DNA from: Clostridia bacterium
Lineage (GTDB): Bacteria; Bacillota; Clostridia; Christensenellales; SZUA-584
Assembly: GCA_018648645.1 (NCBI GenBank)
Contig: JABGQS010000016.1
Span: 1 to 55,128 of the forward strand
DNA: 55,128 bases
Reading direction: 5' to 3'
Shown: positions 749-49,398 of the stretch, one piece after another
How the letters are laid out: each line of letters starts with the position of its first letter
Numbering within the stretch: the first letter of the stretch is position 1
Translations under genes and position numbers: made by a program
The notes under the pieces: model-generated
Database searches by the model: none
What the model was told of the DNA's origin: nothing
The model's input: only the letters and a program-made list of their open reading frames with translations

Positions 749-1762
749 ATGAAAAATAATAAATGGTTTAAATTGATTAGGAAAAGACGGGGTGCGGTTT
801 CGGTTATCGCTGCGTTTTCGATTATTTTCATATTGATAATAGCAGCATTTGTTATTGACTTTGGATTATCATATTTGAAGACAGCTCATATGCAAAACTC
901 AGCTGATTCTGCATCTTTAGCTGCTGCTTCATTATTGCCTGTTTCTTATAATGATACTTATGGGATACAGGATGTTAATCAAAAAGCTCTTGAGTATTTG
1001 GAGAAAAACGATATTACCGAAGAGGACTACACTATAAATGTTCAGCTGAATTTGGGTGCAAACAACTTGTATTCAAGCGTAACGGTAGATATCGACAAGC
1101 ACGAGAGGCTATACATCGCGCCGGTCATTGGAGTAACGCATTTGGATGTATCCCGAGAGGCCACGGCGCAGATCTCGCCGGCTATCGGTATCGGGAATGT
1201 TGTTCCGTTAAGCATTACAAAAGAACTCATGGATTATGCAAAAGCAACCGGGCAAACGCAGCATCTTGAACTGAAGCTTGGAGCGTCGGATATTGATGTT
1301 CTTTTTGGTGCATTTGGAGCGCTGGATTTGGACGGAACCGCCGGCGGCGGTTCGAGTTTGTACAGTGAATGGCTGGAAAATGGTTTCCAGGGGATATTGT
1401 ATGTCGGACAGCAGCTGCCTGTTGAACCCGGTAATATGTCGAATCCAACTATGGCGGCATTTACTGAGAGATATGATAGCTGCACCCACTTCCCGTCGAG
1501 CGGTGGCTGTACTATTGATCACTATGTTGAGACGTGTCCGCGCGTTGTTATAGTTCCTGTTATTACGTATATTGATTCGCACGAAATTGTGATCGAAGGT
1601 TTTTGTGCTTTTATTATTGAGGATTGCGCAGGACAGGGCGTTAACAGCATTATAACAGGGTCGTTTGTTAGGGACATTATTGTTAACGGACAAGGGTCAA
1701 TTGATGATGTGCTTGGAGGCTCAAACGACTTTGGACTGTATGCTATTACACTGATTGATTAA
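749..1762 (+). CDS. tadG: TadG-like pilus assembly protein
   Basis: Protein of 337 residues beginning with a basic leader (RKRRGAVSVIAAFSI) and one long membrane helix at about residues 15-42, followed by the TadG-type motif QNSADSASLAAASLLP, in which the pilus-assembly TadG N-terminal domain (Flp pilus TadE/TadG-like) is recognisable. The remaining 270 residues are extracellular and include a Cys-containing segment (CTHFPSSGGC, CPRV, CAF, CAG). TadG proteins are accessory pseudopilin-like components of the Tad machine. There is no von Willebrand A domain here, unlike some TadG homologues; a VWA protein is encoded separately at 7504-9819. Confidence 0.8.
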   Translation: MKNNKWFKLIRKRRGAVSVIAAFSIIFILIIAAFVIDFGLSYLKTAHMQNSADSASLAAASLLPVSYNDTYGIQDVNQKALEYLEKNDITEEDYTINVQLNLGANNLYSSVTVDIDKHERLYIAPVIGVTHLDVSREATAQISPAIGIGNVVPLSITKELMDYAKATGQTQHLELKLGASDIDVLFGAFGALDLDGTAGGGSSLYSEWLENGFQGILYVGQQLPVEPGNMSNPTMAAFTERYDSCTHFPSSGGCTIDHYVETCPRVVIVPVITYIDSHEIVIEGFCAFIIEDCAGQGVNSIITGSFVRDIIVNGQGSIDDVLGGSNDFGLYAITLID

Positions 1763-1793
1763 TGAATAATAGCCAATTGAATAAGGGGGTAAT

Positions 1794-2621
1794 ATGAGAA
1801 AAATTCGCATCATTGCCATTTTTGCAGCAATTATCACCGCTGTTCTTGTGTACTTTTTTTTATCAAATATCAACAAGCCTAATGAAGTGCAAACAGCGTC
1901 CGTTGTTACGGCAAAATATAATATTGCAGAAAATATAATCATATCGCAGGATATGCTGGAAGTGGTTGAGCTGCCGTCCGAAGCTGTCCATTCTTCTGCT
2001 GCGCAAAGTATTAGCGAGGTTGTAGGGAAGGTCAGCAACGGCATGATTGTAGAGAATGAGCAGATTATTGTGACCAAGCTTGTCGAACCCGGCGAGAGCT
2101 TTGACAGCCTTGCTTATGCGATAGAGGAAGGGCAAAGGGCATTCACTGTCGCAGTAGACGAGGTGAGCGGTGTTGCAGGGCTGCTACAACCACAGAATTC
2201 TGTGGATATTCTTCTTACCATTACGGTGGAGAAAATTGCCGAGACTGACCCTGACGAGGAAGTGGAGGATCCAATAATTGGAGAGGATACCTTATTAGAG
2301 GAGACTACCATTGTTGAAGAAAACATCATAATAAGGGAGACATATTCTGCAGAGCTTTTTCAAAACATCAAGATTCTTGCAGTTGGATTGCAGCTTAACC
2401 AGAACGTGCCGGAGGAAGAGACCGGGTACAAAACGGTGACTCTATCCGTGACGCCGGAGCAGGCGGTCAGATTAAATCTTGCCATTGCCACCGGACAAGT
2501 TCGGCTTATACTGAGGTCTCCATTGAATGATGAGGTTATTGAGATGGATATAATAACTATTGATGATTTGATAACGGAGCTGCAAGAGAATTCGCCAGGC
2601 TGGCAGGAGAATCAATCATGA
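1794..2621 (+). CDS. cpaB: CpaB/RcpC-family pilus assembly protein with SAF domain
   Basis: Protein of 275 residues with an N-terminal membrane anchor (residues about 4-22) and a SAF-type domain (about 37-98) of the Flp pilus assembly CpaB family, followed by the RcpC/CpaB C-terminal domain around residues 110-260 (AFTVAVDEVSGVAGLLQP, then SVTPEQAVRLNLA). In Gram-negative Tad systems CpaB stabilises the secretin and interacts with the pilus channel; in monoderms it is kept although no secretin exists, and probably acts at the cell wall. A good AAGGGGGTAA ribosome binding site sets the ATG. Its TGA overlaps the cpaE start (ATGA), suggesting translational coupling. Confidence 0.9.
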   Translation: MRKIRIIAIFAAIITAVLVYFFLSNINKPNEVQTASVVTAKYNIAENIIISQDMLEVVELPSEAVHSSAAQSISEVVGKVSNGMIVENEQIIVTKLVEPGESFDSLAYAIEEGQRAFTVAVDEVSGVAGLLQPQNSVDILLTITVEKIAETDPDEEVEDPIIGEDTLLEETTIVEENIIIRETYSAELFQNIKILAVGLQLNQNVPEEETGYKTVTLSVTPEQAVRLNLAIATGQVRLILRSPLNDEVIEMDIITIDDLITELQENSPGWQENQS

Positions 2622-3778
2622 GTATAAAAATAATTATTATCAGCAAACTTGAAGAGACGCGATTAAAAGTAGCAGCAGCACTGGAGAGCGAAGATATTTA
2701 TATCGCCGGTCAGTTTAAGGACGGCGCATCCGCTTTGAGCCGTATCGAGAGCGTTGATCCCGATATAGTAATAATGATGCTGGATACTGATGAGAGCGAT
2801 GTTTTTGCAACCAGCGAACGCATATATATGAACAGGCCCAGCAGCGTAGTAATGTTGATAACAAAAAATATGGACGTTGATGTTTTGCAAAGAGCCATGA
2901 AGGCCGGCATCAGGCACGTTATTCCTTGGAAGAGAGAAAGTCAATATCTAATCGAGAATGTTAGAACGGTGTACAATGAGGAGAGCTCGCACCGGGATGC
3001 TTTGAAAGGCGAGCAGAGCCTTGGGCACACCTCGAAAGTTATAACGGTGTTTGGCAGCAAAGGGGGCAGCGGGAAAACAACTATTGCAGTTAACCTTGCG
3101 GTTAATCTTGCAAAAAAGAAAAAGAAAGTTGCTTTGATTGACCTTGACTTGCAGTATGGCGATGCAAATATTTTTCTGAACCTTGAAACGAATGACACTT
3201 TAGATGAGCTGATACAAGGCTATGCAGACTTTGATATTGATACAATCCGGAATTATATGAAGACTCATTCGTCCGGCGTGCACATACTTATTGCGCCGAA
3301 AAGTCCGGAGTACGCAGAATTTATCACGAGAGAACATGTTGAAAAGCTTATTAATATAATACGACCGTATTATGATTATTTAATTATTGATGTCTCGGCG
3401 AGTTTTGACGACATCACTATATTGGCTATTGACAGCTCGAATTTGATATTGATGGTTACCGGACTTGATGTGTCCATATTAAGGAACTCTAAAATCAGCC
3501 TTAAGGTTTTAGAATCAATAAAACAAATAAGCAAAGTTAAACTGGTTATCAATCGTGATTCAAAAGGGTCGATCTCTGTTAGCGATGTGGAAAAGATACT
3601 TCAGTGTCCGATTGCGGCGGTTATCCCAAGCGATTGGAAAACGGTGGGTACCGCTTTGAATACGGGTATACCATTTGTGCAAAATGTGAAAAGAACAAGA
3701 GCGGGCGCGGCAATTGACGCTTTAACGAAAGAGGTAATAGAATTTAGACCGGTTATTGAGAAAAAAGAAGAAGAGTAG
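2618..3778 (+). CDS. cpaE: CpaE/TadZ-like ATPase with receiver-like N-terminus
   Basis: Protein of 386 residues in the CpaE/TadZ family, the polar-localisation and assembly factor of Tad pili. Residues about 1-115 form a response-regulator receiver-like domain (IIIISKLEETR, then IVIMMLDTDES) that may be a pseudo-receiver. Residues about 140-370 form a MinD/ParA-type P-loop ATPase with deviant Walker A SKGGSGKTT and the LIDLDLQYGD segment. The gene overlaps cpaB by four bases. In related systems TadZ localises at a pole before the secretion ATPase arrives and recruits it. Confidence 0.9.
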   Translation: MSIKIIIISKLEETRLKVAAALESEDIYIAGQFKDGASALSRIESVDPDIVIMMLDTDESDVFATSERIYMNRPSSVVMLITKNMDVDVLQRAMKAGIRHVIPWKRESQYLIENVRTVYNEESSHRDALKGEQSLGHTSKVITVFGSKGGSGKTTIAVNLAVNLAKKKKKVALIDLDLQYGDANIFLNLETNDTLDELIQGYADFDIDTIRNYMKTHSSGVHILIAPKSPEYAEFITREHVEKLINIIRPYYDYLIIDVSASFDDITILAIDSSNLILMVTGLDVSILRNSKISLKVLESIKQISKVKLVINRDSKGSISVSDVEKILQCPIAAVIPSDWKTVGTALNTGIPFVQNVKRTRAGAAIDALTKEVIEFRPVIEKKEEE

Positions 3779-3817
3779 TTGAGCCCACATTTATGAGAAG
3801 AGGGAAGGTAGCTGAAA

Positions 3818-5134
3818 ATGGCGCTGTTTGAACGTATAAAAAAGGACCTGGAAAGTGAGAAGGACATCGCTAATCCCGAGATAGGGTTAGATTATTTTGA
3901 TAATTTTGTTGAGGTTAAGGAGAAAGTACACAGTGAGATAATTGAAACATTCAAAACCTCTTCGGACAACCCGGGAAATAAAGTTGATAGTCAGCTTTAC
4001 AGAGACGAAATTACAAAATCTATCGAGGAGATATTAGGCAAGGAATCGATAAACGCAACGAGGTTGCAAAAAGAACGTCTTGCAAAAGAGGTTTTTAATG
4101 ATGTTGCCGGGCTTGGACCGATTGAGCCGTTGCTTGCTGATGATACGATTACCGAAATAATGGTGAACGGAGCAAAAAAGATTTATATCGAGAGACAAGG
4201 GCGTATAGAATTGTCCAATGTCGGGTTTCGAGATAATGATCATGTGTTGCAGGTTATCGACCGCATCGTGTCTTCTGTCGGGCGCCACATTGACGAATCC
4301 AGCCCGATGGTCGATGCACGTCTCAAAGATGGGTCTAGGGTGAACGCGATTATTCGGCCTGTATCTTTAGCGGGCCCGGTATTGACTATCAGGAAGTTTG
4401 CAAGAGATCCGATTACAGTAACGGATTTGGTTGATTTTGGGTCAATTACTCCGGTTATTATTAAATTTCTTGAGTGCTGCGTTAAAGCAAGGCTCAACAT
4501 CATCGTTACTGGGGGCACAGGAAGCGGAAAAACAACATTCCTGAATATATTGTCCGGATTTATTCCGGAAAGCGAAAGGATTATTACAATCGAAGATGCA
4601 GCAGAGTTGCAGCTTAGGCAAGAACATATAATTACTCTTGAAAGCCGTCCTTCAAATACAGAAGGGCACGGCAGGATTACAATAAGGGAACTGGTGCGAA
4701 ATGCACTGCGTATGCGTCCCGACAGGATGATTGTCGGCGAAGTGCGCTCGGGCGAAACGCTTGATATGCTGCAGGCGATGAATACAGGGCATGATGGCTC
4801 TATGACAACGGCACATGCGAATTCACCGCGTGATGTTATTTCAAGGCTCGAAACGATGGTGCTTATGGCGGGTATCGAGATTCCTGTTAAGGCCATTAGA
4901 CAGCAAATTTCGTCTGCACTAGATTTAATTATTCATCAGTCAAGGTTGCGTGACGGCAGCAGGAAAATTGTAAGCGTTACAGAGGTAGTTGGTATGGAAG
5001 GTGATGTAGTTACGCTTCAGGATTTGTTTATTTATAAAGGAGGCAAGCATAAGGCAACAGGTATTTATCCCGGATTTGTCGATAAACTATCGGAAGCCGG
5101 AGTTGTGTTAAATGAAACATGGTTTAAGAAATAA
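3818..5134 (+). CDS. cpaF: CpaF/TadA secretion ATPase of the Tad pilus
   Basis: Protein of 438 residues, a type II/IV secretion-system hexameric ATPase that powers Flp pilus assembly. Visible motifs are the N-terminal domain IEPLLADDTITEIMVNG, Walker A GGTGSGKTT at about residue 232, the Asp/His boxes IITIEDAAELQL, Walker B region RMIVGEVRSGE, and GHDGSMTTAHANS. Length matches the family. It lies 39 bases after cpaE with a GGAAGGTAG ribosome binding site. It would sit on the cytoplasmic face and drive TadB/TadC. Confidence 0.95.
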   Translation: MALFERIKKDLESEKDIANPEIGLDYFDNFVEVKEKVHSEIIETFKTSSDNPGNKVDSQLYRDEITKSIEEILGKESINATRLQKERLAKEVFNDVAGLGPIEPLLADDTITEIMVNGAKKIYIERQGRIELSNVGFRDNDHVLQVIDRIVSSVGRHIDESSPMVDARLKDGSRVNAIIRPVSLAGPVLTIRKFARDPITVTDLVDFGSITPVIIKFLECCVKARLNIIVTGGTGSGKTTFLNILSGFIPESERIITIEDAAELQLRQEHIITLESRPSNTEGHGRITIRELVRNALRMRPDRMIVGEVRSGETLDMLQAMNTGHDGSMTTAHANSPRDVISRLETMVLMAGIEIPVKAIRQQISSALDLIIHQSRLRDGSRKIVSVTEVVGMEGDVVTLQDLFIYKGGKHKATGIYPGFVDKLSEAGVVLNETWFKK

Positions 5135-5145
5135 GGAGATTGAAG

Positions 5146-6078
5146 ATGGTAATAGGGATTGCGGTTTTATCTGCGGTATTTATATTTTGCTTTTTTTATA
5201 TACTATTCTATCGACTGGGTATTAAAAGAATACGGGTAGATGATCGTATTAGCAAACTCATCACTAAGGAATCTGAGGTAGAGAAAGCCGACAAGGGAAA
5301 AGAGAAAAAGCGCAGAGACAAAAGAAAAAGCGGCTTTGCAAAGAAAATGGCCGCGGAACTTGAGTCAGCCGGAATTTTATTGAAGGCTGAAGAATATCTG
5401 CTTATTTGGGCAGCGTCTACGATAGTGCCTTCGCTGCTTTTTTACATAGTGGGAGGTCAGCTTTTATCGGTTGTTGCCGTGCTCTTGGTGGGCTTGATTA
5501 TACCACCTTTTCTTGTGGCCAGATCTAAAAGAAAAAGGATGAAGAAATTTGAAAAGCAGCTTGCAGATTCGATTGTTCTAATCAGCAACAGCCTAAGAGC
5601 AGGCTTTACGTTTCAGCAGGCCATGGAAAGTGTGTCCAAAGAAATGCCTGAGCCGATATCCGGCGAGTTTAGGCGCACTTTATTGGAGATACAGCTTGGC
5701 TCGGCGACGGACGAGGCAATGGAAAGAATGGTAGAGCGGACGAACAGCGCAGACGTGAGTTTGCTTATTTCTGCTGTGCTTATTCAATGGAAAGCAGGCG
5801 GAAATCTGGCCGATGTGCTTGATAATATATCCGGAACTATAAGAGAGAGGCTGAGGATAAAAGGGGAGATAAGAGTGTTGACTTCGTCAGGCAGGATGTC
5901 GGGGTTGATAATTGGGATGCTGCCGATATTCTTAGTTGTTATTTTAATGATTATAAACCCGGTATATATCACAGAGTTCTTCACAACGACTATCGGAATA
6001 ATATTGATTGTTATTGCGGTTATTATGGAATTGGCGGGTTTTATGATTATAAGAAAGATTATTAATATCAAAGTATGA
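5146..6078 (+). CDS. tadB: TadB inner-membrane platform protein
   Basis: Protein of about 310 residues with a type II secretion system F domain (around residues 130-260, motif VLISNSLRAGFTFQQAMESV) and four predicted membrane helices: one at the N-terminus, a pair at about 85-130 and a pair at the C-terminus. TadB and TadC are the platform proteins that couple the ATPase to pilin extraction. A TTG at 5140 is in frame, but the AAGGAGAT ribosome binding site at 5132-5139 is correctly spaced for the ATG at 5146, which I chose. It follows cpaF by 11 bases. Confidence 0.92.
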   Translation: MVIGIAVLSAVFIFCFFYILFYRLGIKRIRVDDRISKLITKESEVEKADKGKEKKRRDKRKSGFAKKMAAELESAGILLKAEEYLLIWAASTIVPSLLFYIVGGQLLSVVAVLLVGLIIPPFLVARSKRKRMKKFEKQLADSIVLISNSLRAGFTFQQAMESVSKEMPEPISGEFRRTLLEIQLGSATDEAMERMVERTNSADVSLLISAVLIQWKAGGNLADVLDNISGTIRERLRIKGEIRVLTSSGRMSGLIIGMLPIFLVVILMIINPVYITEFFTTTIGIILIVIAVIMELAGFMIIRKIINIKV

Positions 6079-6085
6079 GGTAATT

Positions 6086-7006
6086 ATGATTTATATCGCA
6101 TTATCGTCAGCTGTTTTAATATTTGCATGTCTGATACTGTTGCTTTCGCCTTTAACCAAGAAAAAAGAGCGGATCAATTCTAGAATTGAACGTATTTCCA
6201 ATATGTATGATAAGAAAGACAAATTTAATGATGAAATTCTTAAGAAACCTATGGGGCAGAGATTTGTAAAGCCGCTGCTAAAAAGGTTTCTAGAAGGAAT
6301 TTCTAATATATTTCCAAAACTTGATACTAAAAAATCTAAAATGGTTTTAGAAAAAGCGGGATACAAAATTCCGCCTGTAACATATAATGTTATTCTGTTC
6401 CTTGTTATTATTGCATCCGGGATGGGGTTTATGCTTCTTGCTTTTATATTAGATTCGGACGTGCTCGTCGTTGTCTTGTTTACTATTTTAGGCATGGTAT
6501 TTGGAATGCTGATTATGAAGTATATACTGCGAATTAATACGCGGCGCAGGAAGGAAGCACTTGGCCGGCAGATGCCGGAAGTCCTCGATTTGCTGAGTGT
6601 AAGTGTTGAAGCCGGGCTTGGATTTGATGCTGCTTTGCTGCATGTAATCTCAAGGATAAAAGGACCATTGACTGATGAATTGCTTGTGGCGCATAGAGAG
6701 ATTAGTATGGGCAGATCCAGAAGAGACGCTTTGGCGGCACTGGGTGAGCGCAGTGGGCTCGAATCGATGATGTCATTTACAAACGCTGTTATACAAGCAG
6801 AGAGGAAGGGACTCTCGCTGAAAAATGTATTAAATATTCAAGCAAAACAGATTAGGCAGCAGCGGCGGCAGGCTATCGAGGAAAAGGCTATGAAAGCGCC
6901 GGTGAAAATTATTGTTCCGTTAGTGGTTTTCATTTTCCCGGTTATCTTGATCGTGCTCTTAGCTCCGGCGATAATTAATATTTTGGGAATTTTAGGAGGA
7001 ATGTAG
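6086..7006 (+). CDS. tadC: TadC inner-membrane platform protein
   Basis: Protein of 306 residues and the second platform subunit of the Tad machine. It has an N-terminal membrane helix, a helix pair around residues 100-150, and a type II secretion F domain (VLDLLSVSVEAGLGFDAALLHV) followed by C-terminal helices with IIVPLVVFIFPVIL. It starts 7 bases after tadB behind a TATGAGGTAATT leader, and closes the core tad operon. The order cpaF-tadB-tadC is the standard one. Confidence 0.92.
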   Translation: MIYIALSSAVLIFACLILLLSPLTKKKERINSRIERISNMYDKKDKFNDEILKKPMGQRFVKPLLKRFLEGISNIFPKLDTKKSKMVLEKAGYKIPPVTYNVILFLVIIASGMGFMLLAFILDSDVLVVVLFTILGMVFGMLIMKYILRINTRRRKEALGRQMPEVLDLLSVSVEAGLGFDAALLHVISRIKGPLTDELLVAHREISMGRSRRDALAALGERSGLESMMSFTNAVIQAERKGLSLKNVLNIQAKQIRQQRRQAIEEKAMKAPVKIIVPLVVFIFPVILIVLLAPAIINILGILGGM

Positions 7007-7016
7007 AAAAGCAATT

Positions 7017-7355
7017 ATGAAGATGAAAATATCTGAACATGAATTTAGGATTATTGATGCCAGTACTTTTGGTAAAAGACTTGTTGGGCTCATGGGGAAA
7101 AAAGAGCTTCAAAAGGACGAGGCTATGCGGCTTATGCCGTGCTCCAGCATTCATACGTGTTTTATGAAATTTGCGATTGATGTTGTTTTTTTGGACAAAA
7201 AGAATAAGGTGGTCGACACCATTAAAAGCTTGCCGCCTTGGAAATTTAACGCGTATAGCAAGAGCGCTTATCAAGTTGTTGAGATGGCTGTGGGGGCTAT
7301 CGAAAGAGCCGGTATAAAAAAGAACATGGTAGCAAAGTTTGAGGATTTGTCCTAA
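7017..7355 (+). CDS. DUF192 family protein
   Basis: Protein of 112 residues matching the DUF192 family: RLVGLMGKKEL near residues 22-32, CSSIHTCFMKFAIDVVFLD at about 42-60, and the closing VVEMAVGAIERAGI. DUF192 proteins are small beta-rich domains, often secreted or membrane-linked, whose biochemical role is not established. Here there is no signal peptide. It starts 10 bases after tadC with AGGAGGAATG upstream, so it is probably co-transcribed with the pilus genes. DUF192 genes next to Tad or type II secretion loci recur in Firmicutes and Actinobacteria as far as I recall, which hints at an accessory role. A second in-frame ATG exists at 7023. Confidence 0.85.
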   Translation: MKMKISEHEFRIIDASTFGKRLVGLMGKKELQKDEAMRLMPCSSIHTCFMKFAIDVVFLDKKNKVVDTIKSLPPWKFNAYSKSAYQVVEMAVGAIERAGIKKNMVAKFEDLS

Positions 7356-7503
7356 CGATTAGCATAAACTATGGTCGCGGGCTATGGGCAGTAGACTAAA
7401 AAAAAAGACATTGTTATTCTCATATCGATAATTACAGGGCTTGGTACTGATAATAAATTTAGACAATAAAATTAGTGAAATTTGGCGCAAGGAAGCTGAA
7501 AAG

Positions 7504-9819
7504 ATGAAAACTGTATTTTGTGTTCTGATTGCCTTGGCATTCCTGAGTACATTTATTTTGAGCTTTGAAACTGCTCTTTCATATGACGAGGATGAGCCTG
7601 TTAGTTTTATCATTGTGATGGATGACAGTGGGTCGATGCGGGGATCGGACCCGGAAGAGTTAGCTCTTGATGGGGCAAAGCTGTTCATTGATCTGCTGCC
7701 TGCGGGCAAAGCGAACATCAGCGTTATACTTTATGGACGGGATGCCGTAACAATCGTTTCTTTGACAAGTGTTGATTCGGTAAGCAAAAAAGAGATAATT
7801 AAAAGCACACTAGTAGAAGAAATCAGCTATAGGCAGAACATGACCGACTATGGGGCTGCTCTTGATTTGGCAGTCAACAATCTGATTGAAGCAGGCTCGC
7901 AGAAAGCGGCGATTTTGTTATTTACTGACGGAAAATTATACGGTGGGGATGTTCAGGAAGTAGAAAATCAGCTGGAGGGAGCTATAAATTATTGTAAGGG
8001 CATGGGGTGGCCAATCTATACTATCGGATTGAATTTTGACGGTAGTGTTGACCGAGTTAGTCTGGAGGAAATATCACTGGGCACTGATGCGGGGGATCCA
8101 TTGATTACCGAAGAGCCGCGGGAATTGAGCGAGTTTTTCTCAGAAATATTCAAGCGATATTATAAAAATATACAGCCAAGAGAAACTGTCGAGGTAAAAG
8201 AAGGTGACGCGTTCTATAAAATCGAAATTCCGCAAATGGTTCTTGAAACCAGTATAGTAATAAATGGGGTGAGCGCTGATACGGTGACGACTCTTATGGG
8301 ACCGAGCGGTGTGGTCATAGAATTTGATAATGTGCAATATCAAAAATTTGGGGGAAAGACGTACAATGTAATCAAGCTTATTGAGCCCGTAAGCGGGGAG
8401 TGGAGCGTGCAAATTAGCGGGCTTGATTACTCAATGGATGCAATCTCGGTTCAATCTTTGAATGTAGTTGATTTACCGGTGGTTCTTGAAGTTCCGCTAG
8501 ACGAAATATATATCGGGAAGCCGGCTCTAATTGAAACATACCTGCTATATAAAGGCGAGAAAGTTACCGACGAGGATTATTATAACGGGGCTGATGCGAC
8601 AGTCTTGGTTACGAATGCTGCGACAAATGAAGTTGAATCATACCCAATGACTTTTTGCGGATCAAATCTTTGCGCAGACATTATATTTGAGGATTTTGGC
8701 GAATATATTGTAAAAGCAAATATCGTAACTCCGTATTTTGAGAGGGAAAGCGGTGAAGCGCAAATCCTAGTTACAAACCATGCGACCGAAATAAAAAAAC
8801 AGTTTGGCGAGGTTAATCTGAAAGTAGGTGCCGGTGATCAATTTGATTTATCCGACTACTTTAGTGATTCGGATAACAATATAGTGAGCTATGAAGCCCT
8901 GATGTCTGAACAAAGTGCTATAACGGCACAAATAAGACGAGACGTTTTGTATCTTGATGCAGGAGGGCAAGCAGGAAAGGTAAGCGTTATCGTATCTGCC
9001 ATTGACAGCGAAGGAGAAAAAACGGACCAGGAGTTTACTGTAGTGGTGAAGAATACTCCGACTTTAATCGAAAAACAAATTGGGGAATTGTTGCTGATAT
9101 TAGGAAAAGAATACACTTTGAAACTTGAGCAATATTTTTCTGACCCGGATGGGTTGCCTGTCACAATTCAAGTGGAGATAGAAGACAAAGTGAACTGCGT
9201 TGTGTATGAGAGCACAAACAACATGCTGTATATAAAAGGAGTTAATTCGGGAAGGGCGAGCATAAGCCTGGTCATGACAGACAGCGATAACGAAAGCGTT
9301 GAAATATCGGGGGAAGTGGTGGTAAAAACTGCGCTTGTATATTGGTTGGAGAGATTTTGGTATCTGATTGTGCTTCTTGTAGCCGTGCTCATAATAGTCG
9401 TCTTGATGTTGCGCAGAGTCAGGGGAACGATTAGAGTTCAAGTACAAATTGACGGAAACTGGCTGGAATCATATGATGTGGCAACAGGCAGCCGATATGT
9501 ACAGAGCCCTGATTTAGGGAAAAGCAAGTTCACACTAAAGGTACTTCTGGACGTGTATTCTCCTATGGCAAAGTGGTTTGACGGAAACGAGATTACAGAG
9601 TTGCTGGACACGTTTGACACTTCAAATGTAGCTGTTATCAGTCCGATTATCGGAAAAAAAGTGAAGATAACGGCGAAAAAGGACGTGAAATTAAAATATG
9701 TAAAACATGGCGGTGACGAGAAAGCGGCAAATCCATGCTACCTTAATAGCAAAGACAGCGTTACTATTGTTCTGGATGAAAGCGCTGGAGTAAATATTAA
9801 ATTAACATATTTCAGATGA
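7504..9819 (+). CDS. membrane-anchored VWA-domain protein with cadherin-like repeats
   Basis: Large secreted and anchored protein of about 771 residues. The chosen ATG at 7504 follows a CAAGGAAGC ribosome binding site and gives a clean signal peptide (about residues 1-26); a TTG at 7441 would add 21 unlikely residues. A von Willebrand A domain follows at about 34-220 with an intact MIDAS motif DDSGS at 40-44. Around 420-610 there are two similar beta-sandwich repeats with the pattern LSDYFSDSDN and LEQYFSDPDG, like cadherin-type or Ig-like modules. One membrane helix at about 618-638 leaves a cytoplasmic tail of roughly 130 residues. The gene follows the tad operon on the same strand after 148 bases. 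VWA proteins bind ligands by metal coordination, so an adhesion or pilus-linked role is plausible but inferred. Confidence 0.85.
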   Translation: MKTVFCVLIALAFLSTFILSFETALSYDEDEPVSFIIVMDDSGSMRGSDPEELALDGAKLFIDLLPAGKANISVILYGRDAVTIVSLTSVDSVSKKEIIKSTLVEEISYRQNMTDYGAALDLAVNNLIEAGSQKAAILLFTDGKLYGGDVQEVENQLEGAINYCKGMGWPIYTIGLNFDGSVDRVSLEEISLGTDAGDPLITEEPRELSEFFSEIFKRYYKNIQPRETVEVKEGDAFYKIEIPQMVLETSIVINGVSADTVTTLMGPSGVVIEFDNVQYQKFGGKTYNVIKLIEPVSGEWSVQISGLDYSMDAISVQSLNVVDLPVVLEVPLDEIYIGKPALIETYLLYKGEKVTDEDYYNGADATVLVTNAATNEVESYPMTFCGSNLCADIIFEDFGEYIVKANIVTPYFERESGEAQILVTNHATEIKKQFGEVNLKVGAGDQFDLSDYFSDSDNNIVSYEALMSEQSAITAQIRRDVLYLDAGGQAGKVSVIVSAIDSEGEKTDQEFTVVVKNTPTLIEKQIGELLLILGKEYTLKLEQYFSDPDGLPVTIQVEIEDKVNCVVYESTNNMLYIKGVNSGRASISLVMTDSDNESVEISGEVVVKTALVYWLERFWYLIVLLVAVLIIVVLMLRRVRGTIRVQVQIDGNWLESYDVATGSRYVQSPDLGKSKFTLKVLLDVYSPMAKWFDGNEITELLDTFDTSNVAVISPIIGKKVKITAKKDVKLKYVKHGGDEKAANPCYLNSKDSVTIVLDESAGVNIKLTYFR

Positions 9820-9928
9820 TTTTAGGGTTTTGCAAGGACGAGAAACGCGTCGGGAGTGTTAATCATAAGGAAAACGGTTAAGTATATAAATACAGGGTTT
9901 GGTCTTTTACATCAGGAAGAAGGAATTT

Positions 9929-9957
9929 TTGAACCACAGTTGATTTTGTGATAAAAT
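9929..9957 (+). promoter_or_regulatory. putative sigma-A promoter of cassette 1
   Basis: TTGAAC at 9929-9934 and TAAAAT at 9952-9957 are separated by 17 bases. The same layout, with clearly related flanking bases (GGAATT upstream, GATTTT and GATA in the spacer), stands upstream of the paralogous cassette at 49370-49398, which supports function. Confidence 0.55.
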
Positions 9958-9971
9958 ATTGGGGGGGATAT

Positions 9972-10505
9972 ATGAGGAAATTTTGTTTGCTGGTAATCTG
10001 CGTATGTATGTTTGGCGGATGTTCGAGCGTGGGTGTGCGCGAATCGCAGCCCGAAAGTACACAGGCGCAGCAAACGCAGTCGCAAAGCATGCAGGAGCAG
10101 GAAACGCAGCCAAAAAGCGTGTTGGCGCAAAAGCTTGAGATCTTGTCGTTTGAAGCGGTTTCGGATTATTATTCGAGAAATGTTGTGCAGGATGGTGCGA
10201 GTATAACTGAGATGCTTGTAATCGCAGATATGCGCTTTGTAAGAATTGCAATGGGCGATGATGAAGAGGAAGTGTTTGCCTATAATTATTTCAGCGATGA
10301 ATTTACTTATATGTATTTTCTTGCGGATGAGCTTGTTGTCAAAGTTGTTTACAACATCGGAGATGACAAAGTAATCGAAGATAAAGATGACTTTATTGAT
10401 TTGGTAAAAATAGAAGCTATTGAACTAAAGGAGTATTTTGAATCGCTGATGGAGACTGCTGATATCAGCGATATAGAATTGTTGAAAGGCGGAGAGAAAC
10501 AATGA
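9972..10505 (+). CDS. secreted lipoprotein of unknown function (cassette 1)
   Basis: I do not recognise the family. The start at ATG 9972 gives a short lipoprotein signal, MRKFCLLVICVCMFGGC, with the lipidated cysteine at residue 17. A Gln/Ser/Thr-rich linker with imperfect QTQ and QSM repeats (about 22-55) is followed by an acidic globular domain with SDYYSRNVVQDG, DDEEEVFAYNY and FLADELVVKVVYNIGDDK. An in-frame upstream ATG at 9948 would bury the signal and is rejected. The stop overlaps the next start (ATGA), so the two products are translationally coupled. A close paralogue lies at 49414-49917; the globular part is nearly identical while the linker here is longer. It should be tethered to the outer face of the membrane. 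Confidence 0.8.
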   Translation: MRKFCLLVICVCMFGGCSSVGVRESQPESTQAQQTQSQSMQEQETQPKSVLAQKLEILSFEAVSDYYSRNVVQDGASITEMLVIADMRFVRIAMGDDEEEVFAYNYFSDEFTYMYFLADELVVKVVYNIGDDKVIEDKDDFIDLVKIEAIELKEYFESLMETADISDIELLKGGEKQ

Positions 10506-11029
10506 ACAAAAAATTTATTGCACTGTTGATCGTGGTTATGATGCTTCTGGTACTTTTTAGCGCAGTTGCATTGGCGGACGATGAGGCGGATGGGGGAGAA
10601 CCCGGAAACGGAGATCCTCAGGAAAGAGAAGAGCGGGCAGCTGCGAGGATGGAAAAATGGCTGGAGCGAAAAGCCAAAATTGCTGAGAGGAAAGCACAGT
10701 TGGAGGCCAGAAAAGAAGCTTTCTTTGCGCTAAAAGAGCAAACGAAGCAAGAAGTGGCTGCGCAAAAGGCGCTGATAAAGGAGTTAAAAGCGTTGATTAT
10801 CGAGCAAGTTCATAGCATAAATGAGATGGAACCTCATGAGCGCAAAACGCTTAAAGGACAAATTAAGCAACTTTGGAAAGAAGTCCGTGATACGCAAAGG
10901 TATCTATGGCAGGTCCGCCAAACAGCTGTGGACAGTGCGCACGGGATTTTGGGTAAAGTGGAAGTTATCGGCAGCGGCGTGGGCGCGGAGGATCTTGAAT
11001 TAATAGAGGATTTCATGGATCAATTGTAA
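10502..11029 (+). CDS. secreted coiled-coil protein (cassette 1)
   Basis: Unrecognised protein of 175 residues. An N-terminal signal peptide (about 1-25, ending ALADD) is followed by an acidic Gly-rich linker and a long charged helical region at about 42-150 (RMEKWLERKAKIAERK, EARKEAFFALKEQTKQ, KALIKELKALIIEQ) that should form a coiled coil. The C-terminus reads GILGKVEVIGSG, then an acidic tail. It overlaps the lipoprotein gene by four bases; the two probably act together outside the membrane. The paralogue at 49914-50465 has the same architecture. With no enzymatic motif a structural or binding role is likely, but function is unknown. Confidence 0.8.
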   Translation: MNKKFIALLIVVMMLLVLFSAVALADDEADGGEPGNGDPQEREERAAARMEKWLERKAKIAERKAQLEARKEAFFALKEQTKQEVAAQKALIKELKALIIEQVHSINEMEPHERKTLKGQIKQLWKEVRDTQRYLWQVRQTAVDSAHGILGKVEVIGSGVGAEDLELIEDFMDQL

Positions 11030-12121: not shown

Positions 12122-12631
12122 TTGACAGAGAATTTGTTTAAGTGGAGACATTTTGAGAAGGAAATAATTTTATTATGTGTAAGATGGTACTTAAAATACC
12201 CACTAAGCTATAGAGATTTGATGGAAATGATGGCGGAGAGAGAGGTAATCGTTACGCACACGACCATTATGAGATGGGTTCACAAGTATTCTCCGATATT
12301 GGATGGAAGAGTGAGAAAGCACATTAAGTTAACAAACGATTCGTGGCGAATGGACGAGACATATATAAGAATCAAGGGCAAAAATGCCTATTTATATAGA
12401 GCAGTAGACTCAACTGGGAAAACAATAGATTTCTATGTATCAGAGCGGAGAGATAAGAAGGCAGCAAAGAAGTTTTTTCACAAAGCACTAGGAGCGGAGC
12501 ATAACAGAGAGCCAAGAGTTATCACAACTGACAAGTATCCAGCAACAGAGATGGCGATACTCGAGGAGAGATATTTCGGAGAAATGAGCTGTAGGACTCA
12601 GCATCGAATGTGTCAATATTCGAATATATAG
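12122..12631 (+). pseudogene. truncated IS6-family transposase
   Basis: The frame starts at TTG 12122 and encodes an IS6-family DDE transposase of 169 residues (full length about 225-235). Recognisable are the N-terminal HTH region (YPLSYRDLMEMM), the first catalytic Asp in RMDETYIRIKG, the second in TTDKYPATE, and [12 protein letters not shown]. Right after TQHR, where the family continues toward the third catalytic Glu, the sequence changes to unrelated residues and stops. The catalytic Glu is missing, so the enzyme is dead. The break near 12598 joins it to an IS3-family fragment. Confidence 0.88.
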
Positions 12632-12717
12632 AGATGTTCTATAATCCAATGCGATTACATTCAGCATTGGGGTATAAATCGCCGATAGCGTTTGAAAAAC
12701 TACATTTTAACTCATGA
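12601..12717 (+). pseudogene. C-terminal remnant of an IS3-family transposase (orfB)
   Basis: A frame different from the IS6 transposase reads [20 protein letters not shown] and then [10 protein letters not shown] before a TGA at 12715-12717. This is the conserved C-terminus of IS3-family integrase-like transposases. No start and no catalytic core remain, so it is a fragment left by insertion and deletion, fused at about 12600 to the broken IS6 gene. Confidence 0.8.
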
Positions 12718-13145
12718 ATCTTCTCTATGTGTCCAATAAATCGGGTATAGTCCGTATCGCAGTCATCTAACTTCTTGCAGTAGCGATTAGTGAATACATA
12801 GTCTGCATTTCCCCACTCGGCAGACTGCCTTTCTCTCCACAATGATAACTCGGTTACCGTTTTCTCCTAGATGTACACTATACGGTCTTTACCTCCTTTG
12901 CCTTGGTGAACAATCACTTGTCCGGTCATCAAGTTGATGTGCTGCCATTTCAACTCAATCGCTTCTGAAATTCTCAGCCCTGTTTTAAGCAAAAATAAAC
13001 ACAGGGTTCTATTCCTGTGGCGGCAGATATATTGAGTATTAAAAACGTACAATAACTGATTTTTTTCATCCCCGGACAGGAATACAGGTAATTTCTTTGA
13101 TCGCTTCATAAAAACCCCCGATTTGAGTATAACCCCTGTTTTCAT
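12705..13145 (-). pseudogene. tyrosine recombinase (phage-type integrase) broken by in-frame TAG
   Basis: Reading from 13145 leftwards gives a tyrosine-recombinase catalytic domain: LPVFLSGDEKNQLL, then TGLRISEAIELKW with the first catalytic Arg, and HQGKGGKDRIVYI with the beta-hairpin Lys. A TAG at 12867-12869 interrupts the frame, after which the same frame continues with recognisable family sequence (LWRERQSAEWGNADYVFTNR, KKLDD). The HxxR box and catalytic Tyr are absent because the 3' end runs into the IS3 remnant. It lacks a core-binding domain as well. Confidence 0.75.
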
Positions 13146-29394: not shown

Positions 29395-29650
29395 GACAGG
29401 AGGAGGGAAAGATTCTTCACTACGCTTGGAATGACAGGGGGGAGTGAGGGCGCATTGGTGGGCAAGCAAGCGGGCGACACGGCTCGCCCCTACGTTGGTG
29501 AATGATGGGGGAAGAGTGCGCGTTGGTGGGCGGACAAGCGGGCGGGCGAACAATGTTCGCCCCTACGTTGTAGAATGACGGGGGGGATTGAGGGTGCGTT
29601 GGTGGGCGGACAAGCGGGCGAACAATGTTCGCCCCTACATTATTGAATGA
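29395..29650. repeat. cluster of palindromic dispersed repeats (family A, three units)
   Basis: Three tandem-like units each hold a 18-19 bp palindrome followed by CTAC and a G-rich tail: variant GGGCGACACGGCTCGCCC at 29472-29489, and GGGCGAACAATGTTCGCCC at 29544-29562 and 29616-29634. Between them GGTGGGCGGACAAGCGGGCG is repeated. The left edge (29410-29445) holds a decayed CTTCACTACGCTTGGAATGACA repeat. The 440-base gap between cinA and the DUF89 gene contains no gene. Confidence 0.8.
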
Positions 29651-29771
29651 TGGGTGTGGAGGATGTAAGGAGAGCGAGAAAACTGTGCAGCACGGCTTGG
29701 GGAGGGGAGGTGGCGCGCAGTGAGAAGGTGTGGTATATTAGCAGAGGCAATGAGAAAGAGGAGACTGATAT

Positions 29772-35890: not shown

Positions 35891-36526
35891 ATGGATAGGT
35901 CTTGTGTACAAAGAGCAGTAACATTGAGCATTTGCAGCAGCATGGCGAAGCAGGGGCGGTATTATGTGCCTGCGGCGAGCTCTGCGCGGCATGTGCATTT
36001 GTGCCAAAAGGATATTGAAGTGCTCTTTGGCAGCGGGTATCAGCTAAGCGAGTTTAAAGCGCTGAGCCAACCGGGGCAGTTTGCGAGCAATGAGAAGATT
36101 TCACTAAAAGGAAGCCGTGGGCAGATAGACGGCATAAGGGTACTCGGGCCCGCGCGGCCGGATACGCAGGTGGAGATATCGCTGACCGATTCGTTTAAGC
36201 TGGGCGTGAAACCGATGGTTAGGATGTCGGGAAATGTGGACGGTGCACCCGGAGCAACGCTGATTGGCCCAAAAGGTCAGGTGGAGCTGGTGCAGGGCGT
36301 TTTGATCTCTGCAAGACATTTGCACATTAATGAGCAGCAGGCGGCGGAGTTTAACATGAAGGACGGAGACGTTGTTTGCCTGAAAAAAGGCGGAGAGCGT
36401 GAAACGATATTTGGCAATGTAGTGGTGAGGTGCGGCAGCGGGCACAGCCTGGAGGTGCATTTGGACACTGACGAGGCGAACGCGGCGCTATTGAAAAACG
36501 GCGATTTATTGGAAGTAATCAGATAA
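35891..36526 (+). CDS. pduL: PduL-type phosphate acyltransferase
   Basis: Phosphotransacylase of 211 residues that converts acyl-CoA and phosphate to acyl-phosphate and CoA inside microcompartments. Two PduL domains carry the zinc-binding motifs SSARHVHL (about 30-37) and ISARHLHI (about 138-145). The first 20 residues (MDRSCVQRAVTLSICSSMAK) precede the catalytic domain and could act as an encapsulation peptide. It opens the BMC operon behind GGAAGGAATAG. With PduP it closes a CoA cycle in the shell. Confidence 0.92.
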   Translation: MDRSCVQRAVTLSICSSMAKQGRYYVPAASSARHVHLCQKDIEVLFGSGYQLSEFKALSQPGQFASNEKISLKGSRGQIDGIRVLGPARPDTQVEISLTDSFKLGVKPMVRMSGNVDGAPGATLIGPKGQVELVQGVLISARHLHINEQQAAEFNMKDGDVVCLKKGGERETIFGNVVVRCGSGHSLEVHLDTDEANAALLKNGDLLEVIR

Positions 36527-36538
36527 AGGCGGACTATT

Positions 36539-37186
36539 TTGAACGAGAGTCAGATTAAACAGCTGATTAAAAGAATAGTGGAAGAAGTGCTTATCAGACT
36601 GAGCGGGTTTGGCGGATACAAAACGCTGGCGCTGATGTCTGATATGAGTGCGCATATGAGCGAAGCGTGCGAATATTTAGTGGGCAAGTCGGCTTTGGCG
36701 GCAATATTTGGCGAAGCGCAGGAGCCGGCTGACATAGACAGCAGAAGAGTGGACACGGACGAGGACAAAAGGAATTTGTTGACAGCGATGCGCAGCGCGA
36801 ACGAAGTTGTGCTGGTGGCGCCGTCGTTGACGCGGCTTTGCGCGGTGGCAAATGGAGAAGAGTGCTGCTTTGCTGCAACTGTGTTTGAAAAAGCTATATT
36901 GAATGGGAAAAAGACGACGGTTCTATTGGATTTTGTGCCACCGAAGTTTAAAAGGGGTACGCTGTTTGAAAAGGCGATAAATGCTGTGGATGCTTTACGC
37001 GACATGGGCGTGACGGTTGTGTATCTAAATGCAAAGGCGGACGAAGGGTATGCGCTGGTGACTGAGTTTGAGATAAACGAAGCAGCAAAGCGCGGTATAG
37101 AGCGGATAAAATGCGCGCCGGGCGCGATTATAACGCCGCTGGCAAGAGACGCCGCGAAGGATAAAGGAATAGCGATTGATATTTAA
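36539..37186 (+). CDS. BMC-associated flavoprotein-like protein
   Basis: Protein of 215 residues starting at TTG 36539, 12 bases after pduL (AAAGGCGGAC upstream). The N-terminal segment ESQIKQLIKRIVEEVLIRL is an amphipathic helix like BMC encapsulation peptides. The core (about 25-170) resembles HFCD-type flavoproteins (VVLVAPSLTRLCAVANGEE, then KKTTVLLDFVPPKF), and the end CAPGAIITPLARDAAKDKG recalls a motif found in other BMC-locus proteins. It is probably a cargo flavoprotein; whether it binds FMN is inference. It lacks the His common in HFCD decarboxylases at the expected place. Confidence 0.6.
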   Translation: MNESQIKQLIKRIVEEVLIRLSGFGGYKTLALMSDMSAHMSEACEYLVGKSALAAIFGEAQEPADIDSRRVDTDEDKRNLLTAMRSANEVVLVAPSLTRLCAVANGEECCFAATVFEKAILNGKKTTVLLDFVPPKFKRGTLFEKAINAVDALRDMGVTVVYLNAKADEGYALVTEFEINEAAKRGIERIKCAPGAIITPLARDAAKDKGIAIDI

Positions 37187-37198
37187 AGGAGATAGATT

Positions 37199-37513
37199 AT
37201 GATACTGGCAAGGGTGAGAGGTAATGTTGTAAGCACAACGAAATCGGACAGGCTTGAAGGACTGAAGCTGCTGCTTGTGGTGCCGATTTCGATTGATACA
37301 TTTGAAGAAAAGGGCGCGCCGTTGGTGGCGATAGACACGGTGGGCGCAGGCGAAGGCGAAGTTGTGATGTGCGTTAGCGGAAGCAGCAGCAGGCAGACGA
37401 CGCTGACGGAAAACAGACCGGCTGATCTTTCTATCATCGGGATTATTGACAGCGTGGAGCTTGGCGGCGATATGGTATTTGAGAAGTTTAGGAACGAAAG
37501 ACGGCAGGGGTAG
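37199..37513 (+). CDS. BMC-P (EutN/CcmL) vertex protein 1
   Basis: Pentameric shell vertex protein of 104 residues. It begins ILARVRGNVVSTTKSDRLEG and contains LLLVVPI, AIDTVGAGEGEVVMCVSGSS and IIGIIDSVEL, all typical of the EutN/CcmL family. It caps the vertices of the polyhedral shell. GGAGATAGATT precedes the ATG, 12 bases after the flavoprotein gene. One of three BMC-P genes in the operon; this one is the longest and has a basic tail. Confidence 0.93.
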   Translation: MILARVRGNVVSTTKSDRLEGLKLLLVVPISIDTFEEKGAPLVAIDTVGAGEGEVVMCVSGSSSRQTTLTENRPADLSIIGIIDSVELGGDMVFEKFRNERRQG

Positions 37514-37543
37514 CGATAGCAAAGGTAAGGAAGGGTTAGTATT

Positions 37544-38959
37544 ATGGAATTAACACAACAACAGATTGAACAAATTGTGAAGGATACGGTCAGCAAGCTG
37601 GCAGGGGCGAGTGGCGGCGCATTGAGCGGCAGCGCGACGAGCGGCGAGTGGCTTTGCGATACGGCCGAGCAGGCTGTGCAAAGCGCGAAACGTGCGCAGG
37701 AGCAGCTAAGCGAGATGAGTATGGAGCAACGGGGCAAGCTGATTGCTGCGATGCGAGCTGCGTCGATTGACAACGCAGAGTATTTGGCGAAAATTGCGGT
37801 GGAGGAGACGGGATACGGTATCGTTTCTAACAAGACGGCGAAGAATTTGCTGGCAGCAGAGAAAACGCCGGGCATTGAAGACTTGAACACGGGAGCGCTT
37901 TCGGGCGATTACGGACTGACGATTACCGAGATGGCACCGTATGGTGTGATTGGCTCGATAACACCGTCAACTAACCCGACATCGAGCGTTATAAATAACT
38001 CAATCAGCATGATTGCTGCCGGAAACTCGGTGGTGTATAACCCGCACCCTGCGGCAAAGAGGGCTTCGACAGAGACGATGCGCGTGCTTAACGAGGCGAT
38101 TGTTGCGGCGGGCGGACCGAATGCGCTGAACTGCACGGTGAAAGAGCCGACAATCGAGACGAGCAATATTATAATGAATCATCCTGATATAAAGATACTT
38201 TCCATAACGGGCGGAGAAGCTGTTGTGAACGTTGCTATGAAGACGGGCAAGAAAGTTATCGCAGCGGGACCCGGAAACCCACCTGTTATTGTAGATGAGA
38301 CGGCGATTATCAACGAAGCAGCAAAGGACATTGTGGATGGAGCGAGTTTTGACAACAACGTGCTGTGTATCGCGGAGAAGGAAGTGTTCGTGGTGGACAG
38401 CGTGGCGGACGCGTTGATGAGCGGTATGGAACTTAGCGGCGCTGTAAAAGTGAGCGGCGGAGATATTGAGAAAATTGTGAAGACTGTGCTTGTGCAAAAA
38501 GAAGGCAAGTACATGATTAATAGGAATTATGTAGGCAGAAGCGCTCAGGTGATACTGCGGGACAGCTGTGTTGCGTTTGACGGCACGCCGAGACTGATTA
38601 TCTGCGATGTGGATGAAAAGCATCCGCTGGTAACAACCGAGATGATGATGCCGGTGCTTGGTGTAGTGAGGGTGGCAAATGTGGACGAAGCGATAAGCAA
38701 AGCCATTATCGCGGAGGGCGGGTGTCACCATACGGCGATGATGCATTCTCAGAACGTGACTAACCTGAGCAACGCGGCAAGGGCGCTGGACACGACGATA
38801 TTCGTGAAAAACGCGCCGTCGTACGCAGGGCTTGGGTTTGAAGGCGAAGGGTATACCACGCTGACGATTGCGACACCGACCGGCGAAGGACTTACGAGCG
38901 CGAGAAGCTTTACGCGAAGCAGAAGATGTGTATTGCACGGAAACTTTAGGATTATATAA
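37544..38959 (+). CDS. pduP: CoA-acylating aldehyde dehydrogenase (PduP/EutE family)
   Basis: Enzyme of 471 residues oxidising an aldehyde to acyl-CoA with NAD. The N-terminus ELTQQQIEQIVKDTVSKLAG is an encapsulation-type amphipathic helix joined by a Gly/Ala/Ser linker. The core has SITPSTNPTSSVINNSI, the NAD-binding region and catalytic C275 in SFDNNVLCIAEKE. In this locus the likely substrate is acetaldehyde from DeoC. It is followed by a 157-base gap carrying a dispersed repeat, unusual for a BMC operon. Confidence 0.94.
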   Translation: MELTQQQIEQIVKDTVSKLAGASGGALSGSATSGEWLCDTAEQAVQSAKRAQEQLSEMSMEQRGKLIAAMRAASIDNAEYLAKIAVEETGYGIVSNKTAKNLLAAEKTPGIEDLNTGALSGDYGLTITEMAPYGVIGSITPSTNPTSSVINNSISMIAAGNSVVYNPHPAAKRASTETMRVLNEAIVAAGGPNALNCTVKEPTIETSNIIMNHPDIKILSITGGEAVVNVAMKTGKKVIAAGPGNPPVIVDETAIINEAAKDIVDGASFDNNVLCIAEKEVFVVDSVADALMSGMELSGAVKVSGGDIEKIVKTVLVQKEGKYMINRNYVGRSAQVILRDSCVAFDGTPRLIICDVDEKHPLVTTEMMMPVLGVVRVANVDEAISKAIIAEGGCHHTAMMHSQNVTNLSNAARALDTTIFVKNAPSYAGLGFEGEGYTTLTIATPTGEGLTSARSFTRSRRCVLHGNFRII

Positions 38960-38974
38960 GGTAACGAGAAGGAA

Positions 38975-39065
38975 AGATAAGACCCTTCGACTACGCTCAG
39001 GGTGACAATGTGTGGCGCAGAAGGCGGGCGAACAATGTTCGCCCCTACATCGGGGTGACAAGGGA
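38975..39065. repeat. dispersed palindromic repeats inserted within the BMC operon
   Basis: GACCCTTCGACTACGCTCAG followed by GGTGACA (38981-39007, family B) and GGGCGAACAATGTTCGCCC (39026-39044, family A) followed by CTACATCGGGGTGACAAGGG. Both repeat types also occur at other loci in this window. They lie between pduP and pduS. Confidence 0.8.
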
Positions 39066-39116
39066 TTGTCAGACGGTAAGCGATTAATGAGAGGCTATTA
39101 TAAAGAGGGAAAACGA

Positions 39117-40445
39117 ATGATCATTGACGAAAAAATTCGTGAAGCCGGGATTATCGGAGCAGGCGGGGCCGGATTTCCGACACATGTAAAAGTGAAATGC
39201 AAGGCAGAGGTCATTATAGGCAACGGTGCTGAATGTGAGCCGCTGCTGCATGTCGATCAACTGTTGATGCAGCATTATGCACCGAAGGTTGTGCGCGGCA
39301 TGGAGCTTGTTATGACGGCGACCGGGGCAAGCCGTGGCGTGATATGTCTAAAAGAGCATTATCACAAGGCGGTGGATGCGCTTAATGCGGCGATAGCAGG
39401 CAAAAGCAATATTACGCTGAAGCTGATGAAAAGCTATTATCCCGCGGGCGATGAGCAGACGATGGTTTATGACGTGATGGGCGAGGTTGTGCCGACGGCG
39501 GGACTGCCGCTGGATGTGGGCGCGGTCGTCAACAACGTGAGCACGTTTATGAGCATTGCCGATGCCGTAGATGAGAATAAGTCGGTGACGGACAAGTATG
39601 TGACGGTGGGCGGAGATGTGCAGCAACCTGTGACGCTGAAGGTGCCGATTGGCACGCCGTACAGAGCGCTGGCAGTTGCTGCCGGATTTGAAGGTAATGA
39701 AGACGATTATACGCTGGTGATTGGCGGTCCGTTGATGGGTAAGCTGTGCCATGACTGGAGCGAGACGGTGACCAAAGCGACCAGCGGGGTGCTGGTGCTG
39801 CCGAATGAACACTTTTTGGTAAAGAGCAAAACGCGTGAGGACAAGTCGGACTTGAGACTAGCTAAAGCGGTTTGCTGCCAATGCAATATGTGTACGCTGA
39901 TGTGTCCGAGAAATATGTTGGGGCTGCAAGTTGAGCCGCACAAAGCGATGCGTGCAGCGGCTATGGGCAATGCTTCGCTATTAGGAGACCCGAACGGCGT
40001 ATATTCGTGCTGTGATTGTGGACTGTGTACGTTTTATGCGTGCAACTTTGGACTTAACCCGAGCGGTATGATGCAAAAGATGAAGCAGGGGCTGAGTGCT
40101 GCGGGGTATAAGCCGGTTAAGCAGGTGAAAAGTGCGCCGAATAGTGGGATGGAGTATACGCGCGTTCCTGTGTCGCGGTTGGTTGGACGGCTGGGGCTGA
40201 GTAATTTTGACGTTCCTGCGCCGTTGGTGGACAAAGACCTGCCGATACACATTGTGCGGATATCGCTAAAGCAGCATATAGGTGCGCCGAGTGTGCCTAG
40301 CGTGAAAGCGGGCGACGAGGTTAAAAAAGGCGACATGATTGGCGAGATAAAGCAGGGAGCGCTTGGTGCAAGAGCACATGCAAGCATTGATGGCGTTGTG
40401 ACCGAAGTGACGAGCGATTATATAGAGATTAAGGCAAGAAGATAA
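39117..40445 (+). CDS. pduS: PduS-like RnfC-type flavin/Fe-S protein
   Basis: Protein of about 442 residues of the RnfC/NuoF-like SLBB family that serves as PduS (cobalamin reductase or shell-linked electron-transfer protein). The Gly-rich IIGAGGAGFPTHVKV at the N-terminus, the FMN/NADH region with GNGAECEPLLHVD, and two [4Fe-4S] sites CCQCNMCTLMCP and CCDCGLCTFYAC (about residues 262-312) are all visible. The C-terminus has a biotin/lipoyl-like barrel. ATG 39117 gives the family start; GAGGGAAAACGA precedes it, and earlier in-frame starts lie in the repeat. The neighbour is PduT-like, its usual partner. Confidence 0.9.
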   Translation: MIIDEKIREAGIIGAGGAGFPTHVKVKCKAEVIIGNGAECEPLLHVDQLLMQHYAPKVVRGMELVMTATGASRGVICLKEHYHKAVDALNAAIAGKSNITLKLMKSYYPAGDEQTMVYDVMGEVVPTAGLPLDVGAVVNNVSTFMSIADAVDENKSVTDKYVTVGGDVQQPVTLKVPIGTPYRALAVAAGFEGNEDDYTLVIGGPLMGKLCHDWSETVTKATSGVLVLPNEHFLVKSKTREDKSDLRLAKAVCCQCNMCTLMCPRNMLGLQVEPHKAMRAAAMGNASLLGDPNGVYSCCDCGLCTFYACNFGLNPSGMMQKMKQGLSAAGYKPVKQVKSAPNSGMEYTRVPVSRLVGRLGLSNFDVPAPLVDKDLPIHIVRISLKQHIGAPSVPSVKAGDEVKKGDMIGEIKQGALGARAHASIDGVVTEVTSDYIEIKARR

Positions 40446-49300: not shown

Positions 49301-49369
49301 TTCAAACAGCGGTAAAATGGTTATATATATAAGTATTAATTTTGGCGCGTGCATTAGAAAGAGGAATTA

Positions 49370-49398
49370 TTGTGCAACGACAGATTTTTTGATATAAT
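49370..49398 (+). promoter_or_regulatory. putative sigma-A promoter of cassette 2
   Basis: TTGTGC (49370-49375), 17-base spacer, TATAAT (49393-49398). The surrounding bases parallel those of cassette 1 at 9929-9957. Confidence 0.65.

Follow-up and report, generated by a model that had tools for sequence, protein, structure and literature searches.

Some bacterial two-component systems (TCSs) come with dedicated exported accessory or output genes. The periplasmic helical chaperones ZraP (of the ZraSR system, whose regulator ZraR is NtrC-type) and Spy are exported, have a hairpin-like build and make up the main output of their envelope TCS. In the Cpx envelope stress system of Escherichia coli, cpxP is encoded divergently from the CpxRA genes, and the lipoprotein NlpE provides a second known Cpx input. 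CpxP binds and inhibits CpxA, interacting with the kinase sensor (PMC4160245). In Staphylococcus aureus, SaeP and SaeQ are induced by SaeR, and their complex turns on the phosphatase activity of SaeS; the SaePQ promoter contains two regulator-binding direct-repeat sites (PMC5083920).

The gene pair analyzed here encodes a lipoprotein (LP) and a secreted protein predicted to form a helical hairpin (CC), and occurs twice in a 55,128-nucleotide stretch of a Clostridia genome (the window). As in CpxP–CpxRA, a small exported protein, here modelled as helical, is encoded divergently from a PhoB/OmpR-type regulator and a kinase (10 of 13 pair loci, the window copies not among them). However, CC has neither the LTXXQ motif (0/11 proteins) nor a Spy/CpxP Pfam match, the hosts are Clostridia (Bacillota), and the lipoprotein partner is encoded in the same operon, whereas cpxP has no such partner gene. 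The likeness to SaeP/SaeQ–SaeRS lies in a Gram-positive TCS, two small auxiliary genes, one of them for a lipoprotein, and a direct-repeat promoter. In contrast to the secreted CC hairpin, SaeQ is a four-helix membrane protein; the sae genes form one operon instead of a divergent layout; SaeS has a short external linker where the present kinase carries an external domain of ~130 residues; and homology of LP to SaeP found no support in any Pfam or NCBIfam family model. With ZraP and Spy the pair may share an exported protein of hairpin-like build as the main output of an envelope TCS, but ZraP has no sequence match to CC, and its structure (3lay) aligns to the CC model with a Z of 9.8, a value common to dozens of unrelated hairpins. 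Given the lack of LTXXQ or family matches, the other partner types and the other operon form, the pair is a member of neither the CpxP nor the SaePQ system; it resembles CpxP–CpxRA and SaePQ–SaeRS in layout and is not homologous to them. A TCS with dedicated exported genes is a known arrangement, here built from undescribed proteins: pair and TCS would represent a Gram-positive counterpart of CpxP/SaeP-like arrangements made from unrelated components. A search of the literature outside subscription journals found no account of a comparable module from Clostridia, which is weak evidence.

Two copies of the LP–CC pair in the window

Both copies lie on the forward strand, 40 kb apart. The first comprises LP1 (9972–10505) and CC1 (10502–11029), and the second LP2 (49414–49917) and CC2 (49914–50465), with a terminator-like hairpin following CC2 at 50510–50543. 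LP and CC are coupled by an ATGA overlap in each pair. LP carries a lipobox (FGGC/LGGC, FGGC in LP1) with Cys17, then a variable linker, and then a nearly invariant domain (~residues 46–177 of LP1) consisting of a beta-meander and a C-terminal helix. The linker of LP1 is Q/T-rich and is encoded across a 30-base tandem repeat (10045–10118). CC is a protein with a Sec signal, predicted to be secreted and to fold as a helical hairpin.

Identity between the copies is 79% for LP and 75% for CC. Nei–Gojobori estimates of dN/dS for copy 1 against copy 2 are 0.21 (LP) and 0.19 (CC), and such low values mark the frames as genuine genes kept by purifying selection, as opposed to reading frames that arose by chance. 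Resolved by region, dN/dS of LP is 0.13 in the domain and 0.47 in signal plus linker. An earlier note made from the sequence alone had described a nearly invariant core and linkers of varying length. That note had placed two matched, ATGA-coupled pairs of a lipoprotein and a secreted helical protein here; the coordinates are correct, and the frames are confirmed as genes. It had also proposed a comparison of synonymous and nonsynonymous change and a search for further copies in the genome. The former revealed selection on the protein sequence (dN/dS ~0.2), and the latter, run on the genome that contains the window (2.67 Mb in 77 contigs, 95% complete), found these two copies and no third.

The homologous DNA extends from 9871 to 11029 in copy 1 and from 49314 to 50465 in copy 2 at 77% identity. 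The parallel flanks that had been noted therefore hold only for ~100 bases upstream, and further out the neighbors are unrelated. The stretch 749–9819 holds a Tad-type pilus cluster (TadE/G-like, CpaB, TadZ, TadA, TadB and TadC) and, behind it and immediately ahead of pair 1, the gene for a von Willebrand A protein. A truncated IS6-like transposase with a tyrosine-recombinase fragment lies downstream of pair 1 (12122–13145). Between the pairs are an intergenic 72-base tandem repeat of about three copies (29429–29654) and likely microcompartment genes (35891–40445; PduL-like, EutN-like, aldehyde dehydrogenase and RnfC-like). Shortly before pair 2 there is a cluster of 22-base repeats (GAGCGTCCTGCGGACA...), at 48194–48283, 49040–49085 and 49209–49245, which may have played a part in the duplication. 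Near the same pair, a BlaI-like repressor and a BlaR1-like M56 sensor (53109–55127) form a separate signalling system. These neighboring genes were named by eye, those of the Tad cluster from their translations.

Neither LP nor CC reached the cut-off of any Pfam or NCBIfam family, and PDB sequence searches with the LP profile and with the kinase-sensor profile found no relative, in line with the suggestion that the two proteins belong to no described family. AlphaFold2 models were built on alignments of 11 natural members. The LP model displays eight antiparallel strands followed by helices, with pLDDT >90 for approximately residues 51–170. The CC model shows a signal peptide and a two-helix hairpin (H47–114 and H119–158) at modest confidence (pLDDT 71, pTM 0.44). 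Structural comparison by Foldseek and VIA placed LP nearest to a Polo box (Z 7.1) and p32/C1qBP (Z 6.6), both within the range of unrelated folds, and retrieved for CC generic helical hairpins only, with ZraP and FadA among dozens. No function follows from either fold, as the LP matches are not confident and the CC hairpin carries little information.

Partnership, two-component system and promoter box in relatives

The search for LP homologues covered 100 relatives, 396 genomes of the order, 391 of the class, 398 of the phylum and, in a single scan, 84,980 species genomes. The 11 LP genes studied outside the window (loci L019, L024 to L032 and L048) all come from uncultured Clostridia, and all relatives are metagenome assemblies. 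Occurrence is patchy, with LP in 5 of the 396 genomes of the order and in about nine genera overall. The phylum draw of 398 genomes contained LP in the window genome alone, and viral contigs, plasmids and phages gave no match, which makes a phage or plasmid module unlikely.

A CC gene adjoins LP at all 11 outside loci, and thus at 13/13 with the window pairs, within database coverage. At L019, CC directly follows LP and runs off the contig, and the remainder is found on a contig starting with the same bases (L071). Copies lacking the partner, or lacking selection on the protein sequence, would have spoken against a module according to the earlier note; what we found was pairing throughout and low dN/dS. 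The gene order is LP–CC in the window pairs, L019 and L030, and CC–LP in the other nine copies (9/13). The LP tree separates the same two gene-order groups (support 87/89), and the tree of the adjacent response regulators places L019 and L030 against the rest (83/87). The partnership has therefore outlived a swap of gene order, and the ATGA coupling, which had been taken as conserved, is not the general feature.

The pair is divergent from genes for a response regulator and a histidine kinase at 10 of the 11 outside loci. The regulator (218 aa) is of the PhoB/OmpR type, with a receiver domain (PF00072, E 5.7e-25) and a Trans_reg_C winged-helix domain (PF00486, E 2.9e-20), and scored below every cut-off shown for equivalog models. 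The kinase (~433 aa) contains HisKA, HATPase_c and HAMP domains, and its external region of ~130 residues matches no known family. A profile of this N-terminal sensor part matched in 4 of the 396 genomes of the order (G008, G048, G119 and G146), exactly the strong LP genomes besides that of the window (chance overlap ~5e-9), and in the genomes searched the sensor domain was never found without LP. In genus g258 of the class set, genomes with one, one and two kinases carry two, one and two LP genes, respectively. The exception in linkage is G576, whose first LP locus (L048) has the TCS and whose second (L031) has none nearby. Adjacency and co-occurrence stem from a single linked locus and do not count as independent events. 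The kinase tree is too weak for testing co-inheritance (support 71/78) and lacks the gene-order split.

This linkage to a dedicated kinase and regulator was seen in relatives and not in the window genome. The sensor domain has no match in that genome (95% complete), and its best full-kinase matches, at 24–28%, cover the generic kinase core only; the kinase could sit in the missing 5%. The proposal of a two-gene functional module stands as far as the matched exported partners go, but not as a free-standing unit, since in relatives the pair adjoins a TCS and a promoter box.

That box is a 32-base element with the consensus TTTACACAATTTCACACAATTNTNACATCATT, present in 11/11 outside upstream regions and composed of three head-to-tail half-sites spaced 10–11 bases, a pattern typical for PhoB/OmpR-type regulators. 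When each locus was scored with a model that excluded its own group, the boxes reached 22–37 bits; of 2000 random samples per locus, none attained the score at ten loci and one did at L031. In 11/11 regions a −10-like hexamer, with A at position 2 and T at position 6, starts exactly 17 bases past the box, a distance that puts the third half-site at the −35 position, as is seen at activator-dependent promoters. The rest of the intergenic DNA diverges around the conserved box. L031, with no TCS beside it, has also kept the element, which fits action in trans by the TCS that G576 encodes at another place. Together with the divergent TCS in nearly all relatives, the conserved box points to signalling as the ancestral context of the pair.

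Both window upstream regions, 9871–9971 for copy 1 and 49314–49413 for copy 2 (forward strand), are conserved with each other and score at background for the triple-repeat box. Each contains a −35-like hexamer 17 bases ahead of a −10: TTGAAC-17-TAAAAT at 9929–9957 in copy 1 and TTGTGC-17-TATAAT at 49370–49398 in copy 2. The promoter of its own claimed for each copy is thus present with its 17-base spacing, but the −35 of copy 2 is weak, agreeing with the consensus at 3/6 positions, and promoter-like matches of such quality barely exceed a shuffled background on consensus scoring. Compared with relatives, these promoters occupy the position of the regulator box; otherwise they are unremarkable.

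In a genome-wide box scan of the relatives, other matches with two mismatches resembled background, and one extra perfect site was found, in G048 (G048:C3:76452–76479; L058:1501–1528). This copy has a third and apparently a fourth half-site and lies upstream of a gene whose product has a pseudopilin-like N-terminus (GFTLVEILVVIGIIAILSS), a possible second target of the regulator.

Possible roles of the pair as output, regulator or structural element

The account we favor, and regard as probable on balance, is that the ancestral pair was the main output of a dedicated TCS and perhaps also a feedback arm of it, and that the window lineage uncoupled and duplicated it. In this scheme, drawn from sequence comparison, the kinase would sense the state of the envelope through its ~130-residue external domain and phosphorylate the PhoB-type regulator, which would bind the three half-sites, the last of them replacing the −35 element, and switch on the LP/CC operon. 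LP, a lipoprotein anchored to the membrane and bearing a compact beta domain, and CC, a helical hairpin that is soluble or lies in the wall space, would form an extracytoplasmic pair. Together they would bring the envelope back to its resting state by working on it and possibly also on the kinase. The window lineage would have lost kinase and repeat but retained and duplicated the pair, whose expression may now be sensor-independent and probably constitutive, driven by promoters in which a −35-like hexamer keeps the 17-base spacing.

Since both window copies are under purifying selection with no kinase detected, we prefer an output with a function of its own, possibly with feedback, to a role confined to kinase regulation. 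The simpler history would be that the window lineage lost the TCS, because L019 and L030, closest to its LP genes in both tree and gene order, carry one; the supports of the LP and regulator trees (87/89 and 83/87) are modest, and the alternative history is that the TCS recruited the pair independently. An anonymous gene pair thereby becomes a testable regulatory system with a predicted operator and a predicted regulator. The window genome would be a natural experiment in which the sensor is lost and the output is retained and doubled, a pattern that suggests the pair is useful alone and bears on whether kinase accessory proteins are mainly regulators or effectors. A bolder version, which we advance only tentatively, casts LP and CC as founders of two new extracytoplasmic families that jointly form a membrane-anchored co-sensor or envelope chaperone complex of a new kind under their own TCS; in the window genome, such a module would have escaped its sensor by losing the box, acquiring a −35-like hexamer with unchanged spacing and being duplicated.

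Somewhat unlikely, in our judgment, is that the pair's main role is to inhibit the kinase or serve it as an accessory sensor, with regulator-driven LP and CC binding the external domain and shutting the kinase off, and the window copies being relics or recruited by another kinase. The divergent layout and apparent autoregulation do resemble the known feedback pairs SaePQ and CpxP, and the constant company of LP wherever the kinase sensor occurs fits such a role. However, the two window copies are under purifying selection where no such kinase was detected, and the kinase-less L031 copy persists, though G576 has a kinase elsewhere.

An independent structural role at the surface, close to the earlier note's suggestion of a membrane subunit with a filament or spacer partner, we consider improbable; the lipoprotein would anchor a CC filament or spacer, and the TCS would be a chance neighbor. 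The invariable pairing (13/13), the position of copy 1 after the Tad pilus gene cluster and the resemblance of the CC model to the adhesin FadA (VIA Z ~10) would fit, but that resemblance is shared by many helical hairpins and is non-specific, copy 2 lies away from pilus genes, and a TCS link at 10/13 loci with a regulator-type box at 11/11, across several families, is too regular for a chance neighbor. Least credible is that a single mobile or syntenic block spread in Clostridia and that common descent alone keeps LP and CC next to a TCS to which they are functionally unrelated. The sparse occurrence (5/396 genomes of the order, about nine genera in all) points to lateral transfer or recurrent loss, but the box with its fixed 17-base geometry is retained amid diverging intergenic DNA, also at L031, the gene order is swapped inside the block with the TCS link retained, and the phage, plasmid and viral collections hold no match.

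CC-profile matches away from LP loci were mostly matches to the signal peptide. In the window's family, CC-like proteins of putative homology occur without LP at two loci, L009 and L082. At L082 (9073–10037, genome G002), an ATGA overlap joins the gene of a secreted coiled-coil protein to that of a 112-aa lipoprotein without the LP beta domain, possibly a parallel pairing of the lipoprotein-plus-coiled-coil type. The window genome itself has a comparable coiled-coil gene standing alone (G000:C20; L009:1495–2118).
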